The notes under the pieces are model-generated. The model searched no databases. It saw nothing but the letters and a program-made list of their open reading frames with translations, and was not told the DNA's origin. A stretch of 64,000 bases of DNA from an uncultured Pelagibacteraceae bacterium (lineage in GTDB: Bacteria; Pseudomonadota; Alphaproteobacteria; Pelagibacterales; Pelagibacteraceae): assembly GCA_902612235.1 (NCBI GenBank), contig CACMCJ010000001.1:62001-126000 (forward strand), written 5' to 3'. The translations under genes were made by a program, and so were the position numbers. How positions within the stretch are numbered: position 1 is the stretch's first letter; every line of letters starts with the position of its first letter. This document shows, one piece after another, positions 13,186 through 63,119 of this stretch.

Positions 13186-14157
13186 ATGTATTTTGACGAA
13201 AAGAATAGTTTTTTTCACGGTATCATGTTTCATCATTTTCATGATGAAAATCTTCATAGCAAAAGCCAAGGTTCAATTTCGAAAGATGATTTATATAAAA
13301 TAATAAATTTTGTCGGAAGAGAAAATATAATAAATGCGGATATATTTTTCAAAAAATTTAAAGAGAAAAAACTTAGATCAAATGAAATTTGTCTTACTTT
13401 TGATGATGGAATTAAAAGCCAGTTTGATGTTGCGTTGCCTGTTCTTGAAGACTTGGGTATTAAAGGTTTTTTCTTTGTATATAGTTCAATGTTTGAAAAT
13501 AAACCTGATTATATTGAGGTATTTAGATATTTTAGACAAAATTTTTATAAAGAAATAAATGATTTTTATCGAGATTTTTTTCGGACCCTAAATGTAAATC
13601 TGGAAAAATTTTTTAAAAAAAACAAACTTAAAATTGATAACATCAAACTAAAAGCTCCATACTACTCACTAGAAGACATTAAATTTAGAATAACTAGAGA
13701 TGAATATCTCAATAGAGAAAATTACAAAAATCTAATGTTTTTATTAATGAGAAAAAAGAATTTTAGTGCGGAAAAATATTTTTCTAGATTATTTTTTTCT
13801 GAAAAAAATCTTAAAGACCTTCATGATATGGGTCATATTATAGGCTTACATTCTCATTCACATCCAACTTTAATTGAGAAACTTAATTATGAAAATCAAT
13901 TTAATGAGTACAATACTTGTATTTTAAAACTGTCTAAATTGCTAAATATTTCAAGAAAAGAAATAAAATGCATGTCCCACCCATGTGGAAGTTATAATAA
14001 AGATACACTTAAAATATTGTCAAAACTAGGTATAGAACTTGGATTCAAACAAATAATGGCAATTGAAAAAGATAAAGGAATGAAAGCAGTTAATAATTCA
14101 CCTTTAGAAATAGCAAGAGAAGATCATTCAAAAATTATGCGAAGAGTAAATTTATGA
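13186..14157 (+). CDS. polysaccharide deacetylase (NodB/CE4-like)
   Basis: LTFDDG and HSHSHP catalytic motifs. Confidence 0.88.
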   Translation: MYFDEKNSFFHGIMFHHFHDENLHSKSQGSISKDDLYKIINFVGRENIINADIFFKKFKEKKLRSNEICLTFDDGIKSQFDVALPVLEDLGIKGFFFVYSSMFENKPDYIEVFRYFRQNFYKEINDFYRDFFRTLNVNLEKFFKKNKLKIDNIKLKAPYYSLEDIKFRITRDEYLNRENYKNLMFLLMRKKNFSAEKYFSRLFFSEKNLKDLHDMGHIIGLHSHSHPTLIEKLNYENQFNEYNTCILKLSKLLNISRKEIKCMSHPCGSYNKDTLKILSKLGIELGFKQIMAIEKDKGMKAVNNSPLEIAREDHSKIMRRVNL

Positions 14158-14948
14158 AGATTACACTTTTTACATCTAATAAAAATAGACATAATTATTT
14201 AGTTAATTGTTTGGAGAAAATCTGTGAAAAATTATTTGTAGTGCAAGAGTTTTCACCAAAAATAAATAATATAATTCCAACTAGATACCCGAGCTCTGAA
14301 ATAATGAAAGAGTATTTTTCAAAAGTTTATGACGCGCAGACTAAATTTTTCGGTAATAGCAATATAAAACCAGTGTTAAATACTACCAAAGTGTTACCTC
14401 TTGCTATGGGAAGTTTAAAAAATTGTACCATATCATCGATATCAGAATTTTTAGAAAGTGATTTATATATTGTATTTGGCAGCAGTTACATCAAAGGAGA
14501 ATTAATTGATTTTTTAATAAAAAAAAAAACTATTAATATTCACATGGGTGTGTCTCCATATTATAGAGGGACTGATTGTAATTTTTGGGCCTTATATGAT
14601 AATAATCCTCATTTAGTTGGCGCAACGATACATTTAATTTCAAAAGGACTTGATGATGGACCAATTTTATTTCATGCGCTTTCAAATTTTAAAAAAGATC
14701 CTTTTGAGTATACTATGTCTACAGTAATGTCTGCTTTTAAAGCTATTATGAAAAGGATTGAAGATGAGTCTATTTTTTCTATCAAGTCATCAACTCAAGA
14801 TATAAATAAAGAGATAAGATTTACAAAAGCAAAAGACTTTAACGAAGAAATTGTTAAAGACTTTTTTTCAAAAAAATTGGACCTTCATTCAAAAAAAACT
14901 CAAATTTCTCTTTTTAAAGATCCCTTTATATTGCCAGAACAATTTTAA
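14154..14948 (+). CDS. formyltransferase family protein (sugar N-formyltransferase-like)
   Basis: INIHMGVSPYYRGTDCNFWAL and GLDDGPIL, retaining N/H/D catalytic pattern of formyl-THF transferases; ATGA overlap with upstream ORF. Confidence 0.85.
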   Translation: MKITLFTSNKNRHNYLVNCLEKICEKLFVVQEFSPKINNIIPTRYPSSEIMKEYFSKVYDAQTKFFGNSNIKPVLNTTKVLPLAMGSLKNCTISSISEFLESDLYIVFGSSYIKGELIDFLIKKKTINIHMGVSPYYRGTDCNFWALYDNNPHLVGATIHLISKGLDDGPILFHALSNFKKDPFEYTMSTVMSAFKAIMKRIEDESIFSIKSSTQDINKEIRFTKAKDFNEEIVKDFFSKKLDLHSKKTQISLFKDPFILPEQF

Positions 14949-17777: not shown

Positions 17778-17972
17778 TTAGCTTTTATCTGGATTTGTTA
17801 GATCTTCAAGTGTAATGGGTTTTTCAATGTCGTGCATTACATCTTTTTTTTTTGTTTCGGGGCTTAAACTTGACTTTTTTGCTCTTCGTTGTTCAATTCT
17901 AGCTTTACGCTTAGCCTCTTTTTTCATCGCTTTATCGCCTCTAGTAGATTTATAGTCATAATGAATGCCCAT
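17778..17972 (-). CDS. small charged hypothetical protein (64 aa)
   Basis: ORF in codon-consistent gap between dcd and sulfatase-like gene. Confidence 0.6.
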   Translation of the reverse strand: MGIHYDYKSTRGDKAMKKEAKRKARIEQRRAKKSSLSPETKKKDVMHDIEKPITLEDLTNPDKS

Positions 17973-18120
17973 TTTAGCGCTCCTTTAGTATTACCTTTTT
18001 TACTTCTTGAATTGAATTTATGCAAGCTTAATCCTTATAAATTTTCTATTATTACTAGAACTTTTATTAAAAATCTTAAGAAGTTTCGTTCTTTAGTTAA
18101 TCAAAAATTTGTACTCTAAT

Positions 18121-19566
18121 TTATTTAAAAAGTCTTTTTTTAAATTCATCTTGAAGAATGGTAGGCTTATTTATTTCAATAAATTTTGCTTTATTTCTTT
18201 TTATAAAAAAAATATTGTTAAGTGAACTCGAGGGATCATCAATTATATTTCTTGAACCATGGTCCGACAAAAAATAAATATCAGCAAAATTAATTTTTTC
18301 TTTTGACAAATTTTTTAAGAAATTATCTATAAAAATTATTGTACACTTTCTGTCTATATTGTGAAAATAAGTATGTTGCTCTATATCTAATGAATTATTG
18401 TAATTTCCTAATGATCTCAGTCCTTCATAACTACAATTTTCATTAAAACCATATGGTTTATGTGGAACTAAAAAATGTCCAAAAATCAAATCATATTTTT
18501 TTGATTTAATATCATCTGCTACAAATGACAAAGTTGAAACGAATGATGCTTTTTCACCTTGGGGACTTAATGTAACATCAATTAGATTAAATTGTCTTAA
18601 CACTCTCCAAACAAATAAAGAGGCTATTGATCCATTATATTTCCATGCGTTAACAAAATGAGTTAAAGGGCTTTCTTTAAATCCTTCAATATATTTTTTC
18701 TTCTCAAACGGGTTAAAGCTTTTGCACTTTTTAACACTTAAATTATTACAAAAATTTATATGCACTGATTGAAAAACAGAAACCGATTTAAAGTTTTCAA
18801 ATAATTCATTTTTTAAAAAAGTATTATTATAGTGAAAATTATTATTCTCTTCTTTTATAAACTCTTTTGGGTCTAAAATTTTTTGATTAACTAAAGAGCC
18901 AATCGATTTTATTGTGGAGGGAAACTTTGTTTTTACGTTTGAAAATAAAATTAAATTATGATTCTTTGCTAAAGAATACATTAAATTATCAAATTCTTTT
19001 CCTTCTGAGGTTTTACTTTCGTAGCTATTCATACCAGACATTTCATCAAATATTAATATTACTTTTATATTTTCACTCATTGTAGATACATTCTTTTTGA
19101 AATTTAAAAGATTTGAAATTGATTTATTATCAAACAAAGATGTTAACAAAAGTGACACAATCACTACTAAAGAAATTTTTGCAGCATTCTCTTTTAGAGT
19201 AAAATTAAATAATAGTAACGCTATAAACATTAAAAAAAGTAATAATAAGCTTGCATAGTAAGGTCCACCAAAATTGTTCGTTAGAAAAGATAATGAATTA
19301 GTTAACTCTCTATGTAAACTTAAGTGATTATCTAATCCATACAAAGCAATTAAAGTTGTAAAAACATAAAGAGATTTTATTTTATTTAATTTTTTTAGAT
19401 AAAAAACACAAAAAATAGATAGAGCCCATAAAGTAATAAAAAATGATAAAGAAAGAAAAATTTCAACTCTGAAAACTTGAAATTTAAAGAACCATGTTGG
19501 AAATAAACAAACAAAATAAAAAAAACTATAAAGGAATAAATTCATACATTCTTCTTTTAGTATCAC
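18121..19566 (-). CDS. membrane-bound sulfatase/alkaline-phosphatase-superfamily-like protein
   Basis: N-terminal multi-TM region, then VILIFDEMSGMNSY, GHFLVPHKPYGF, YFLSDHGSRN metal-site-like motifs. Confidence 0.75.
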   Translation of the reverse strand: MILKEECMNLFLYSFFYFVCLFPTWFFKFQVFRVEIFLSLSFFITLWALSIFCVFYLKKLNKIKSLYVFTTLIALYGLDNHLSLHRELTNSLSFLTNNFGGPYYASLLLLFLMFIALLLFNFTLKENAAKISLVVIVSLLLTSLFDNKSISNLLNFKKNVSTMSENIKVILIFDEMSGMNSYESKTSEGKEFDNLMYSLAKNHNLILFSNVKTKFPSTIKSIGSLVNQKILDPKEFIKEENNNFHYNNTFLKNELFENFKSVSVFQSVHINFCNNLSVKKCKSFNPFEKKKYIEGFKESPLTHFVNAWKYNGSIASLFVWRVLRQFNLIDVTLSPQGEKASFVSTLSFVADDIKSKKYDLIFGHFLVPHKPYGFNENCSYEGLRSLGNYNNSLDIEQHTYFHNIDRKCTIIFIDNFLKNLSKEKINFADIYFLSDHGSRNIIDDPSSSLNNIFFIKRNKAKFIEINKPTILQDEFKKRLFK

Positions 19567-20923
19567 TTATAGTTGTAATATTTTTTATTTTGACAATTTT
19601 AGACATTTCATTTTTAAAATTCTCTTCAGTATAATCTGGAAATATGTCTCCTTTCAAAGATAGCATGAACTGACTTGTGGGATCTTCTTTAGGAACAAAC
19701 TCTATTAAACCTGTTGGCGCTAAAGAAGTAAGCCAACTAATTACTTGTTTTAGTGGAACATTTTTAGCGATAACTAAATGATGGATTAAAGCTAATGCTA
19801 AAATACAGTCAAACTTCGCTCTTTTATTAAAACTTTTTCTCTCTTCATCATTCCAACCCAAATTACTACTGGGATTTGTAAAATCTAAATAAAGTGGCAA
19901 AATGTTATAATCATTCTCTTTAGAATTTAAATAATTTCTATCTAATACTTTTAAGTCAAAATCAAAACCAATAACATTTTTTACATTATTTTGAATTGCA
20001 ACCTTTGAGAATTTTCCATCATTACAACCTAAATCTGCTAATAAATTAATTTTTTTATTTTTTTTTATAAAATTTTCAACTATTTCTATCTTTTTTTTTT
20101 CTTCATTATCTGAATAGGTATTTTTTTCAGAATATTTGTCCCAAGTTGTTATCTGTTTTTTTAATTTAAGTCTTTTAATAAAACTTTTTAACCTTTGCAG
20201 CATAAATTTAAATGCATTTTTAGTAAGCCCTTTTGTTTTTTTTATTTTGTTATGTGTAATATCAAGATTTTTTGTGGCTTTTTGTTCAATCTTATTTAAT
20301 AAAAACACCTGAAAAAAAATCGTTGGATTGAAAAAATGATGAGTCTTTAGAATTGAGGATAAATCAGAAGTTTTTATTCCTTCAAGATTTCCTTTAAACC
20401 AGTTGTTAAAATTAATTCCCGTTTTTGATGTTAAAATTAGTGGATTTAAAAAATTTTCACAAAATTGAGTATGAGCTCCCCAAAACTCATTCTCTTTATA
20501 TTCATCGATAGAAAGCGCATCAATGAAAATTGGTTTTAAATTTTTAAATTGAACATTATACGCACTTGCATCAATTAATTTTGCACCTTTTTCGAGAAGA
20601 AATAGCTGTAAATCCAAATGAAAAATAGCCGCGTCTTTAAGTTGATTGAATGTCCATTCATAAGGGTAAGAAATATATTCTAACTTTTCATGTTCAATAA
20701 CTAATGAATTGTCGGTTGATTTTAATTTTAATATTTCTTCAGAGTTGATTTCTTTAGTATCAACTAGAAATTTTTTTTCAATAAGCTCTTTAATTAAATT
20801 GTTTTTTCTTAAAAAATCGTATTTTGTTCGACCGTTGGAAAAAACCTCTCTAAAAATTCTATCTTTAAAATAAAATATTTTAGCAGAGGGATCTCTGAAT
20901 GATCCAGCATCATAAATCTTCAT
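19526..20923 (-). CDS. two-domain protein: N-terminal kinase-like region plus C-terminal SAM methyltransferase (NoeA-like)
   Basis: LIDASAYNVQF...PIFID (D-x4-N ... D) followed by LADLGCNDGKFSKVA SAM motif and ALALIHHL. Confidence 0.75.
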   Translation of the reverse strand: MKIYDAGSFRDPSAKIFYFKDRIFREVFSNGRTKYDFLRKNNLIKELIEKKFLVDTKEINSEEILKLKSTDNSLVIEHEKLEYISYPYEWTFNQLKDAAIFHLDLQLFLLEKGAKLIDASAYNVQFKNLKPIFIDALSIDEYKENEFWGAHTQFCENFLNPLILTSKTGINFNNWFKGNLEGIKTSDLSSILKTHHFFNPTIFFQVFLLNKIEQKATKNLDITHNKIKKTKGLTKNAFKFMLQRLKSFIKRLKLKKQITTWDKYSEKNTYSDNEEKKKIEIVENFIKKNKKINLLADLGCNDGKFSKVAIQNNVKNVIGFDFDLKVLDRNYLNSKENDYNILPLYLDFTNPSSNLGWNDEERKSFNKRAKFDCILALALIHHLVIAKNVPLKQVISWLTSLAPTGLIEFVPKEDPTSQFMLSLKGDIFPDYTEENFKNEMSKIVKIKNITTISDTKRRMYEFIPL

Positions 20924-20931
20924 TCTATTAA

Positions 20932-21141
20932 CTAATCAATTTTTTTTTCTTTTTTTTTAAAAAGTTTGGAAAGTACATTCTTAAATTTTCTCCAATAAAT
21001 TGTTACAGTAGCACCTATTGCTGCTACGAAACCAATAATAGCTTGTAGAATAATGCCTCCAGTACCAGGATCAAGATATGCCTGAGAACTTGTTTGCATT
21101 AAAAAAGTGTAAAAAAGGACTAAAAATAAATTTTTGAACAT
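20932..21141 (-). CDS. small membrane protein with YLDPGTGG motif
   Basis: 69 aa; signal-like N-terminus, YLDPGTGGIILQAIIG, one TM, basic C-terminus. Confidence 0.75.
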   Translation of the reverse strand: MFKNLFLVLFYTFLMQTSSQAYLDPGTGGIILQAIIGFVAAIGATVTIYWRKFKNVLSKLFKKKEKKID

Positions 21142-21188
21142 TCAAGACTATATTAATTTATTTAGACTAATACAACCTTTCGAGTTTG

Positions 21189-21335
21189 CTAATTGAATTT
21201 TTTTTTAATAAATATAAATAATAATGATAATAATACCGCAACTAGTACATCTTGAAAAGGAGTGGCATAAGGATAACAATAATTCCATAAAATCACTAAA
21301 ATTAACCAGATAATCCAATTTACTATTTCAAACAT
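21189..21335 (-). CDS. 48-aa putative membrane protein MFEIVNWIIWLILVILWNYCYPYATPFQDVLVAVLLSLLFIFIKKKFN
   Basis: Open ATG-TAG frame filling an otherwise unexplained gap; two hydrophobic segments and basic tail; not in ORF track because of length. Confidence 0.55.
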   Translation of the reverse strand: MFEIVNWIIWLILVILWNYCYPYATPFQDVLVAVLLSLLFIFIKKKFN

Positions 21336-21340
21336 GTATT

Positions 21341-22057
21341 TTAGTCTTTAAAAAATCTTTTTTTTATTAATGCAGAAAGAAACATTATGATAATAAAAAA
21401 AATAATTGGTAAATAAATTTCTTTTTCAAAAAACAAACTTGTAAAGCTAAAGCTATCAGCTTGTTTTATATATTTATTTATTCCTGACCCAATAGTATTC
21501 CAAATAAAAAACATAGGGGCAAAACCTATTAAACTTGCTAAAAAATAATTTGTTTTTTTTATATTAAAGATAACCGGTAAAACATTTTGTAACCCAAAAG
21601 GAATTCCTAAGCCTCCTGCTAATCTAAAAGCTAAAAAGTAATTAAATTCGTTTTGTTTAAATAAATTGACATATTTATTAAATTTATTTTTTAATAATTC
21701 ATAAACCAATTCCTTAAAAAAAAAATTGGCTATTAAATAAAGATTCAACGCGCCGACAGAAATAGATAATACCGATATAAAAGTTCCCATCCATTTACCA
21801 AATAAAATACCTGATACAATTAAAAGCGGTGATCCAAAACCAAGCAAAGATACCCAAATAATGCTAAAAATAAAAAAAAAGAAAAGATTTACGAAAAGAT
21901 TATTGCCTATAGTTCTTTCTAAATTTAATTGTAATTCCTTATAATATAAAAATTCATCTAATCTGGTCAAATCAATATAAGAGAATATTATGTAAAGAAA
22001 AGTAATTAATATTACTAAATAAATTACTCCTAAAAAAACTTTCAGACCTTTACTCAT
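21341..22057 (-). CDS. VTT/DedA (TVP38/SNARE-associated) family membrane protein
   Basis: LLGFGSPLLIVSGILFGKWMGTFISVLSISVGA and FRLAGGLGIPFGLQNVLPVIF motifs. Confidence 0.8.
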   Translation of the reverse strand: MSKGLKVFLGVIYLVILITFLYIIFSYIDLTRLDEFLYYKELQLNLERTIGNNLFVNLFFFFIFSIIWVSLLGFGSPLLIVSGILFGKWMGTFISVLSISVGALNLYLIANFFFKELVYELLKNKFNKYVNLFKQNEFNYFLAFRLAGGLGIPFGLQNVLPVIFNIKKTNYFLASLIGFAPMFFIWNTIGSGINKYIKQADSFSFTSLFFEKEIYLPIIFFIIIMFLSALIKKRFFKD

Positions 22058-61600: not shown

Positions 61601-63119
61601 CTGCAACAGGAGTGTCGTCCCCCATTGAGCCAGAAGCCTCTTTTCCCTCCTCAGCCATTGGATGTAAAATAAGTTCTAAATCTTCAATACTTAAACCAGA
61701 AAGATATTGCCTCTTCTTAAGTTCTTCACCGCTAAATTTTGCTTCTTCTTTCTCTAGTAATACCTTTTTTTCAAGGTCAATTATTTGTTTGTTATATTTT
61801 TTGTAATCTTTAGCTAATAAGTCTTTAATTTCTTTATCTTTAAAAAGTTTTCCTTTTTTTAAATCAATTGCAATTATTTGTCCTGGGCCCAACTTTCCTT
61901 TTTTAATTATATTTTCTTCAGGAATTTTAATCATTCCCGACTCTGATCCAGCAAAAAATAAATTGTCTGAAGTAATTGTATATCTTAATGGTCTTAAGCC
62001 GTTTCTATCAGTCGCTGCCAAAACCCATTTCGAGTCTGTTGCGCAGATTGCTGCTGGGCCGTCCCAAGGTTCGATTGTGCTATTAAGAAAATTAAATAAA
62101 TCTTGGTGATTTTTTGAAACCGTTTTACTTCTTTTCGACCAAGCATCTGGTATCATCATTAATTTAATTAAAGGGGCTAACTTTCCAGAATGAGTTAAAA
62201 GTTCAAATACATTATCTAACGCACCCGAATCTGAAGAACTTCTAACTACTGGTTGTAAGTTTTTCACATTTTTAAATAATGAACTTGACATATCTTGTTC
62301 ATGAATTTTCATCCAATTTAAATTTCCTTTTAATGTATTTATTTCTCCATTATGTGCTAGTGCTCTAAAAGGTTGAGCCAAATCCCAACTAGGAAAAGTA
62401 TTTGTCGAATATCTCTGATGAAAAATTGCAAATCTTGAAGTCAATTTTTTATCATTAAGATCTGGATAAAATTCTGCTAACATTTCTGCTAAAAACATTC
62501 CCTTATATACAATTGACCTTGAGCTGAAAGAGCATATATAAAAGTTTTTAAGTTGATTTTCTCTAGCAAGTTTTTCAATTTTTTTTCTAGTCTCAAACAA
62601 ATCTCTTTCAAGATCATTAGTTTTTAAATCCTCATTTTTTTTGAAAATAACTTGAGCAATTTCTGGGCGACTTTGGTCAGCAGTTTTACCAAGCACACTA
62701 GGATTTATAGGAACCTGCCTCCAACCATAAATGTGATAATTTTCATCTAATAGAGCTGTCTCTATTATTTCTCTACATTTTTCCTGATCAGAGTAATCAG
62801 TTCTAGGAAGAAAAACCATGCCTACACAGATTCTTTTACTTTCATCTAAATTTTGACCGGTAGAGATAATTTTTTCTTTAAAAAAATCTGGCGCTATTTC
62901 TATTTGAATTCCTGCACCATCACCAGATTTCCCGTCAGCATCTACTGCTCCCCTGTGCCAAATAGCTTTCAAAGCTTCAATACCGTATTCAACAACTTTT
63001 CTTGATTTATTTCCGTCGGTCGTAGCTATAACTCCAACTCCGCATGCATCATGCTCCATTTTAAGGTCATAAGAATGATTTTCTGAGAGAATTTTTTTAT
63101 TTTTTTCGTAATTATTCAT
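58623..63119 (-). CDS. gltB: glutamate synthase large subunit
   Basis: 1498 aa; HDACGVGVIA catalytic Cys start, LISGHSGGTGASP, CHSNTCPVGVCSQD. Confidence 0.98.
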   Translation of the reverse strand: MNNYEKNKKILSENHSYDLKMEHDACGVGVIATTDGNKSRKVVEYGIEALKAIWHRGAVDADGKSGDGAGIQIEIAPDFFKEKIISTGQNLDESKRICVGMVFLPRTDYSDQEKCREIIETALLDENYHIYGWRQVPINPSVLGKTADQSRPEIAQVIFKKNEDLKTNDLERDLFETRKKIEKLARENQLKNFYICSFSSRSIVYKGMFLAEMLAEFYPDLNDKKLTSRFAIFHQRYSTNTFPSWDLAQPFRALAHNGEINTLKGNLNWMKIHEQDMSSSLFKNVKNLQPVVRSSSDSGALDNVFELLTHSGKLAPLIKLMMIPDAWSKRSKTVSKNHQDLFNFLNSTIEPWDGPAAICATDSKWVLAATDRNGLRPLRYTITSDNLFFAGSESGMIKIPEENIIKKGKLGPGQIIAIDLKKGKLFKDKEIKDLLAKDYKKYNKQIIDLEKKVLLEKEEAKFSGEELKKRQYLSGLSIEDLELILHPMAEEGKEASGSMGDDTPVAVLSSHYRPVSHYFRQNFSQVTNPPIDSLRENKVMSLKTRFGNLGNILDFDNLTEEDIYVLDSPILSNSQFKKFNKFFSKKIRVIDCTFDINSSLRDRIEQIRIECETAVRQGSTTLILSDKNISNHKAGIPSALSVGAVHSHLIKNGLRGYCSLNVECSDALDTHSFAVLIGVGATTINPYLAIDSIYQRFEKKLFGKSDFEKCVLKFKKSIDAGLLKIMSKMGISVISSYRGGCNFEAVGLSRGLVSDYFPGMSSRISGIGIIGIEKKIKELNAKFAQQNVYTLPIGGLYRYRKNGEDHQHQGNLIHLLQNAVGKGSYELYKKYSDGIHSLPPINLRDLLKFKTGKEPINIEEVESEEEILKRFGSGSMSHGALSAEAHEVLAIGMNRIKGASCSGEGGEDSKRFKVLPNGDSANSRVKQIASARFGVTVDYLNNANEIEIKMAQGAKPGEGGQLPGFKVTDEIAKLRHSTPGVTLISPPPHHDIYSIEDLAQLIYDLKQINPKARVSVKLVASTGIGTIAAGVAKAKADIILISGHSGGTGASPQTSIKYAGVPWEMGLTEANQILTLNNLRHKVTLKTDGGLKTGRDVVIAAMMGAEEYGMGTSSLVAMGCIMVRQCHSNTCPVGVCSQDKALREKFSGTPEKVVNLFSFVAKEVREILASLGYKSINEIIGRTDLLSQVNKGASNLDDLDLNPLLVQTDPGENPRYCREKIINEVPKTLDEKIWTDIKDKIETSKINKFKYDIENTYRSVGTRLSHYVYKKFGNQKLKSDIININLSGSAGQSLGAFLTTGIKLVVEGDANDYVGKGLSGGSIIIRPSPKSKFLSKENTIIGNTVLYGATSGKLFACGQAGERFAVRNSGSLAVVEGCGAHGCEYMTGGSAIILGQVGDNFGAGMTGGMAFIYDEKNNFENFANPESIIWQPVETDFWKKFLKHNLEEFYKETNSKIAKNILADYEKELKNFIQVCPVEMLDKLKNPITKKDLKFKSA

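Follow-up and report, generated by a model that had tools for sequence, protein, structure and literature searches.

A NoeA–NoeB cassette with a tyrosine-motif mini-protein in a SAR11 genome: a widespread module with a predicted role in group transfer across the membrane

The window analyzed here (the whole stretch of 64,000 nucleotides, positions 62,001 to 126,000 of contig CACMCJ010000001.1, assembly GCA_902612235.1) comes from an uncultured Pelagibacteraceae bacterium of the SAR11 group. Three open reading frames (ORFs) on its minus strand form a compact operon that encodes, in the order of transcription, a 69-aa mini-protein with the motif YLDPGTGG, a 465-aa NoeA homologue, and a 481-aa NoeB homologue. 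The positions and lengths of these ORFs, as given in a first-pass annotation of the same DNA, are confirmed by the ORF list. The trio recurs in many phyla, and we tentatively interpret it as a module that adds a group to an acceptor outside the cytoplasm. The genes are as follows:

20932..21141, minus strand: YLDPGTGG mini-protein, 69 aa, with a predicted signal peptide, one Gly-rich transmembrane (TM) segment, and a basic C-terminal tail.
19526..20923, minus strand: NoeA homologue, 465 aa, with an N-terminal kinase domain and a C-terminal class I S-adenosylmethionine (SAM) methyltransferase domain.
18121..19566, minus strand: NoeB homologue, 481 aa from GTG, with five N-terminal TM helices and an alkaline-phosphatase (AP)-superfamily domain.

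The mini-gene and the NoeA gene are separated by 8 nt. The 41-nt overlap between the NoeA and NoeB ORFs that the earlier annotation reported is correct when the GTG at 19566 is used and becomes 20 nt from the ATG at 19545. The latter is the more likely start, giving a protein of 474 aa, because the SAR11 NoeB homologues align from the internal Met8.

The 465-aa protein is 42% identical to NoeA of Sinorhizobium meliloti, which forms root nodules on alfalfa, with 98% coverage (E 1e-102; tblastn against annotated plasmids). A study of the Legionella pan-kinome assigned NoeA to a family of kinase-methyltransferases with members in about 1200 species (PMC9758233). Two sets of residues were found to be invariant in the NoeA homologues (46/46). 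One is the kinase set, R25, D118, N123, and D135; another is the SAM-binding set, D297, G299, N301, D321, and D323, in which D297-L-G-C-N301 is the core of the DLGCNxG motif. The Arg at R25 occupies the place of the kinase Lys, the pattern expected from that study (PMC9758233), and R25 probably corresponds to R38 of its NoeA-family protein Lani_1194. The methyltransferase domain matches PF13489 and PF08242, below the curated cut-offs. The AlphaFold2 (AF2) model of the protein has a pLDDT of 92.7, and WbdD, MePCE (the methylphosphate capping enzyme), and NodS were among the best of many matches when the fold of this domain was compared with the PDB. By its predicted activities, the protein is a NoeA-family cytosolic kinase-methyltransferase fusion of the Lani_1194 type; the term "kinase-like" in the first-pass annotation is borne out by the invariant kinase residues and the published work. 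In the NoeA tree, the SAR11 sequences constitute one group (support 100/100) inside the Pseudomonadota, and the window NoeA is placed with the SAR11 (Pelagibacteraceae) NoeA (100/99), adjoining those of L014 and L015. As a separate observation, the NoeA of a contig titled as a "Rickettsia typhi" metagenome-assembled genome (L075) groups with those of Berkelbacteria and other candidate phyla, and this title may be wrong.

The 481-aa protein is more diverged: its identity to S. meliloti NoeB is 21% (E ~1e-5 over the AP domain; tblastn against annotated plasmids). The pan-kinome study (PMC9758233) predicts an alkaline-phosphatase fold for NoeB and places it among the conserved neighbours. The window NoeB is too divergent to be picked up by a Pfam Sulfatase search of its own genome, which gave no match. 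A profile of 34 NoeB homologues matches sulfatases, LtaS, and EptA/EptC, and 21 of the 34 match PF00884; the fold comparison with the PDB likewise returned sulfatases and EptC, while phmmer against the PDB gave no informative match for either NoeA or NoeB. In the AF2 model (pLDDT 86.0), long helices occupy residues 2–28, 33–59, 63–91, 102–124, and 127–145, followed by the AP domain, and T218 sits at the start of a helix. The metal-site residues, for which a check had been proposed, are conserved: D174, T/S218, H369, and D435 in 34/34 homologues, H364 in 33/34, and H436 in 29/34. At the nucleophile position, T occurs in 27 homologues, S in 7, and Cys in none (the window letters are PSTIKS). The C/S-x-P-x-R motif expected of a formylglycine sulfatase of the PF00884 type I, whose Cys or Ser becomes formylglycine, is not seen, and NoeB is thus not a classical enzyme of that kind. 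The earlier description "sulfatase-like" therefore holds at the level of the superfamily and fails for a sulfatase proper. This 481-aa protein is a diverged member of the NoeB family, and its extracytoplasmic AP-superfamily domain is predicted to act through a Thr/Ser nucleophile. Its modelled layout of five TM helices, AP domain, and Thr nucleophile is that of the LtaS/EptA type, which suggests that it may work in a similar way.

The YLDPGTGG mini-protein matches no Pfam family. A DNA pattern for YLDPGTG recovered only 2 real cases among 9 matches, and a profile search was used instead. In most members, positions −3 to −1 before the motif read A-x-A, the signal-peptidase-I pattern; the mature chain is thus predicted to begin Y-[LI]-D-P-G-T-G-S, with the Tyr at +1. 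The NoeA-type mini-proteins (n = 72) carry Y1 in 71, D3, P4, and Q12 in 72 each, S8 in 68, and A−1 in 64. The motif is followed by one Gly-rich TM segment and a basic tail, the mean net charge being +3.75 over the 20 residues past the TM segment. All of these family characters (the AxA site, Y-x-D-P at +1, Q12, one TM segment, and the basic tail) are found in the window mini-protein, whose predicted signal peptide ends S-Q-A, so that the mature chain would open with Y22-L-D-P-G-T-G-G. Our literature search found no relevant paper on this motif or on the related motif Y[IV]GPG described below.

The mutual positions of the three genes were examined in two sets of genomes. A scan of contigs gave 446 NoeA relatives, and the best 80 loci, chosen by NoeA similarity, were used for counting. 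In 68/80 loci the mini-gene immediately precedes NoeA, with the two on one strand; a NoeB-like gene lies near NoeA in 73/80, and both the mini-gene and a NoeB-like gene are present in 64/80. The trio is spread over more than a dozen phylum-level groups, among them Pseudomonadota, Nitrospirota, Planctomycetota, Zixiibacteriota, WOR-3, and several groups of the candidate phyla radiation. Elsewhere in all of the flanking DNA, motif-bearing ORFs numbered only three, one of which is a real mini-gene beside NoeB (L023). Since the 80 loci had been chosen by NoeA similarity, the analysis was repeated with a sample of 399 Pseudomonadota genomes that were not picked by similarity. Full-length NoeA was found in 9 of these; the mini-gene is in the same operon in 9/9 and NoeB in 8/9, with three different gene orders among the nine operons. 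The mini-protein profile matched in 7 of the 390 other genomes (Fisher p 1.8e-14, uncorrected for relatedness). The absence of the three families together outside close relatives, which would have spoken against the first-pass proposal, is thus not what was observed, and the idea of the small protein as a membrane partner fits its near-constant linkage to NoeA operons. The mini-gene is also paired with NoeB where NoeA is not nearby (L008, and a second copy in L023), which argues that the mini-protein is not just a NoeA subunit. In two SAR11 genomes, a conserved 237-aa membrane protein with no Pfam family is encoded directly upstream of the mini-gene (L007:5048-5761 and L008:6403-7116).

The cassette is an insertion. 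The block and its surroundings are as follows:

18053..21203, strand not assigned: inserted block of about 3.15 kb, delimited by flank alignments to four relatives (L134, L135, L138, and L139).
21341..22057, minus strand: left neighbour, a core gene outside the cassette, encoding a VTT-domain (DedA-like) membrane protein (PF09335).
21189-21335, minus strand: gene of a 48-aa membrane protein, next to the VTT gene on its cassette side and conserved at the empty site in relatives.
17778..17972, minus strand: right neighbour, a core gene outside the cassette, encoding a 64-aa basic protein.

The 64-aa gene is followed by a dCTP-deaminase-like gene (PF22769) and then by a MurA-like gene, and the VTT gene is present in 53 of 61 genomes of the genus. 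In the four relatives, the VTT gene and the 48-aa membrane gene are joined directly to the 64-aa and dCTP-deaminase-like genes; the window flanks align there to contiguous sequence, and the insert consists of exactly the three genes. Its GC content is 24.6%, as compared with 29.3% for the window. NoeA was found in 7/190 relatives, and the NoeB gene in 5/147 genomes of the order. The cassette is thus sporadic accessory DNA, for which horizontal transfer is the simplest account. Chance association of the three genes is excluded by their co-conservation across phyla together with the clean insertion relative to the four relatives. The source genome is an incomplete assembly of 965 kb; LpxC had no match in it and is present in two relatives, a gap that probably reflects this incompleteness. 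Elsewhere in the window, a polysaccharide-deacetylase gene (PF01522) overlaps a formyltransferase-like gene (PF00551) on the plus strand (13186-14948), possibly a sugar-modification pair.

The same mini-gene is present in the S. meliloti nodL operon. Between nodL and noeA on pSymA (L012:6751-6966, CP130052.1), a gene annotated as a 71-aa "hypothetical protein" encodes ...AHA-YLDPGTGSMLVQ..., that is, an unnamed mini-protein carrying YLDPGTGS. With the window mini-protein as the tblastn query, this nodL-noeA mini-gene was found in dozens of Sinorhizobium plasmids. The genes nodL, noeA, and noeB are host-range nodulation genes of S. meliloti (Ardourel 1995, cited in PMC9758233 and PMC9048898), and modification of the Nod factor by NoeA and NoeB is treated in PMC9048898 as still only hypothesized. 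The passages on this operon in PMC9758233 and PMC9048898 make no mention of the mini-gene.

The mini-protein profile also matched a second family, with the arrangement AxA-Y[IV]GPG[LA]G, TM segment, and basic tail. Its genes adjoin those of an arylsulfate sulfotransferase (ASST, PF14269) and a Sulfotransfer_3 enzyme. PF14269 occurs in 26 of the 399 genomes, and the mini-gene directly follows the ASST gene in 10 loci; the gene order is ASST, mini-protein, small membrane protein (125–250 aa, no confident Pfam family), and Sulfotransfer_3, the last being confirmed by Pfam in 8 of the 10. Such loci, from diverse Pseudomonadota, are as follows:

L206:3413-7132, sister operon.
L207:3061-6710, sister operon.
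L208:4218-7766, sister operon.
L209:3756-7394, sister operon.
L211:3522-7135, sister operon.
L213:23-3028, sister operon.
L214:3913-6957, sister operon.

Profile comparison shows the two families of mini-proteins to be related (hhalign probability 94.9, E 4.4e-8). Y1 and P4 are common to both, the Tyr at +1 being present in 10/10 Y[IV]GPG members, while other residues are type-specific: D3, S8, and Q12 in the NoeA type versus G3 and L8 in the arylsulfotransferase type. A possible mix of both module types was found at L161:2598-6061, where the gene of a YIDPNAGS mini-protein has a Sulfotransfer_3 gene on one side and, on the other, a PF00884 gene with Thr (TTPSV) at the formylglycine position. 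ASSTs use aryl sulfates as donors and can accept tyrosine peptides, and for most of them the natural acceptors and roles are poorly understood (PMC13426309). The gene content of the sister operon suggests sulfation in two steps with participation of a tyrosine mini-protein. In each operon, a mini-protein of the same kind accompanies two enzymes: one is predicted to load a group in the cytosol (the kinase-methyltransferase, or a sulfotransferase of the type that uses 3′-phosphoadenosine-5′-phosphosulfate, PAPS), and the other is a membrane-anchored enzyme of group transfer outside the cytoplasm (the AP-superfamily Thr enzyme, or ASST).

The best account of these features that we can offer is a NoeA-NoeB module, complete in itself and able to move horizontally, which would act in two steps to attach a chemical group to an acceptor outside the cytoplasm; we give this reading a probability of roughly 45%. 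Gene content, homology, the conserved catalytic residues, co-occurrence, and insertion are established here, and from them we infer the substrate, direction of transfer, and product of the module as follows. In the first step, judging from the domain content, cytosolic NoeA would phosphorylate a carrier with its kinase domain and methylate it with its SAM domain; the simplest product would be a methyl-phosphodiester, as WbdD makes on O-antigen. In the second step, suggested by the fold, the TM topology, and the Thr nucleophile, T218 of NoeB would accept the group on the outer side of the membrane, and NoeB would hand it on to a glycan or lipid that is secreted or lies at the surface. Bridging the two compartments would fall to the mini-protein, which would present or carry the group to NoeB. 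The division of labour, in which NoeA loads and NoeB transfers outside, is proposed by analogy with the two-step ASST transfer via an aryl-sulfate carrier. LtaS/EptA-type Thr enzymes use phosphodiester donors, so that a methyltransferase fits such a module.

Several observations weigh against this proposal. Twelve of the 80 loci have no recognized mini-gene upstream of NoeA, the window NoeB taken by itself has no Pfam match, and its best PDB matches are soluble sulfatases with low whole-chain TM-scores, the latter because the TM helices were included in the compared chain. Our literature search found no biochemistry for NoeA or NoeB, and NoeB could hydrolyze rather than transfer. The glycan signal among the 142 flanking proteins is weak (glycosyltransferase family 2 in 5 of them and phage integrase in 3); they do not support a fixed envelope pathway and identify no acceptor. 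The cassette lies inside a polysaccharide region in some SAR11 genomes (L009). Of the conserved envelope-modification system suggested by the first-pass annotation, conservation across phyla stands, and the envelope role is no more than plausible, since the flanking genes are not consistently envelope genes. A role in anti-phage defence was rejected, as PADLOC gave no match.

Among the alternatives, the mini-protein may carry no group at all and serve as a structural adaptor that brings NoeA to NoeB or switches NoeB on, making contacts with its extracytoplasmic YLDPGTGS end and with its basic tail in the cytosol; a lipid or a small molecule would then carry the group. The single-pass layout, the basic tail, the conserved extracytoplasmic motif, and the strong operon linkage all agree with this, and the type-specific residues are as expected of partner recognition. 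However, docking or packing would usually tolerate Phe, and the +1 position is Tyr in 71/72 and 10/10 members, which makes such a scaffold somewhat unlikely. Tyr, never Phe, in two families that have diverged would instead favour use of its hydroxyl. In an explanation built on that hydroxyl, the Tyr would receive the group in the cytosol, ahead of export, and lose it outside to NoeB or ASST; the mini-protein Tyr, bearing (methyl)phosphate from NoeA or sulfate from a PAPS-dependent enzyme, would then be the physiological donor. The near-invariance of the Tyr and its place as the very first residue of the predicted mature chain, the sharing of a Tyr mini-protein by the kinase-type and sulfotransferase-type modules, the acceptance of tyrosine peptides and the use of aryl-sulfate donors by ASSTs (PMC13426309), and the aryl-carrier precedent of caprazamycin sulfation point this way. 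Nevertheless, a single-use carrier would be costly, the Tyr modification is putative, and the signal-peptidase cleavage is predicted from the motif. We regard the Tyr as a carrier as unlikely, and its loaded form as the physiological donor as equally so.

Hydrolytic trimming, in which NoeB would be a phosphatase, phosphodiesterase, or sulfatase acting on exported material and NoeA would act separately, is quite improbable: the AP-superfamily fold with sulfatases as the best PDB matches and the occurrence of NoeB alone in one locus (L010) are in its favour, but T or S in place of a formylglycine Cys (34/34), the five-TM LtaS/EptA-like layout, and the tight coupling to a predicted group-adding enzyme are not. 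That the module evolved for lipo-chitooligosaccharides and modifies them here is scarcely credible even though NoeA and NoeB are host-range proteins of the S. meliloti nodL operon, given that the module occurs in marine SAR11, in Nitrospira, in candidate phyla, and in other groups that are not known to make Nod factors; NodA had no match in the source genome, where the control searches likewise gave no match.

The present findings place NoeA and NoeB, known as host-range nodulation proteins since 1995, in a widespread system not tied to nodulation as such. Its near-constant third component, unnamed in the S. meliloti operon, is open to a direct genetic test in that symbiont, and the parallel ASST operon suggests that both rely on a common logic to bring activated groups across the membrane. 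If the carrier explanation is true, tyrosine mini-proteins are membrane-crossing carriers of activated groups, supplying the donors of NoeB and ASST. The NoeA-NoeB linkage itself was published in 2022 (PMC9758233), and the mini-protein as the third partner may be included there. What is new, as far as our literature search reaches, is the presence of the mini-protein in the nodL operon and its near-constant linkage, the tyrosine at +1, the insertion in SAR11, and the sister operon with sulfotransferases; the nodulation identity of NoeA and NoeB and the parallel operon also go beyond the first-pass annotation.

Comparison with known systems gives the following picture. The S. meliloti operon shares with the window locus the full length of NoeA, the AP domain of NoeB, the gene order, and the mini-gene. 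It differs in having nodL: a nod operon would be recognized by nodL and Nod-factor synthesis genes nearby, and the window locus has neither nodL nor nod genes. In Legionella, Lani_1193, Lani_1194, and Lani_1195 likewise comprise NoeA-type (Lani_1194, a kinase-methyltransferase) and NoeB-type (Lani_1195, an AP-fold protein) genes as neighbours; among 816 neighbourhoods, Lani_1193 is conserved in 65% and Lani_1195 in 38% (PMC9758233). Lani_1193, the identity of which is not stated in the main text of that paper, may well be the mini-protein; its sections on Legionella discuss no SAR11 case and no link to a sulfotransferase operon.

WbdD, the chain terminator of the E. coli O9a O-antigen, resembles NoeA in combining a kinase and a methyltransferase in one chain. 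The order of its domains is reversed, the methyltransferase being N-terminal and the kinase C-terminal, whereas in NoeA the kinase is followed by the methyltransferase, with which the protein ends at residue 465. We know of no AP-type or mini-protein partner of WbdD. The coiled coil of WbdD (PMC9758233) is missing from NoeA. LtaS, EptA, and EptC share with NoeB the five TM helices followed by an extracytoplasmic AP-superfamily domain and the Thr nucleophile; however, the identity is very low, and conserved Cys pairs are present in only a part of the NoeB family. Finally, caprazamycin is sulfated in two steps by the PAPS-dependent Cpz8, an aryl carrier, and the ASST Cpz4 (Tang 2013, cited in PMC4257720; PMC6731281). 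The carrier there is a triketide pyrone from a type III polyketide synthase and not a peptide, the setting is a natural-product pathway, and the group is sulfate and not phosphate. Nevertheless, a phenolic carrier is loaded and an ASST then transfers the group, which is the same logic as that of the sister operon.

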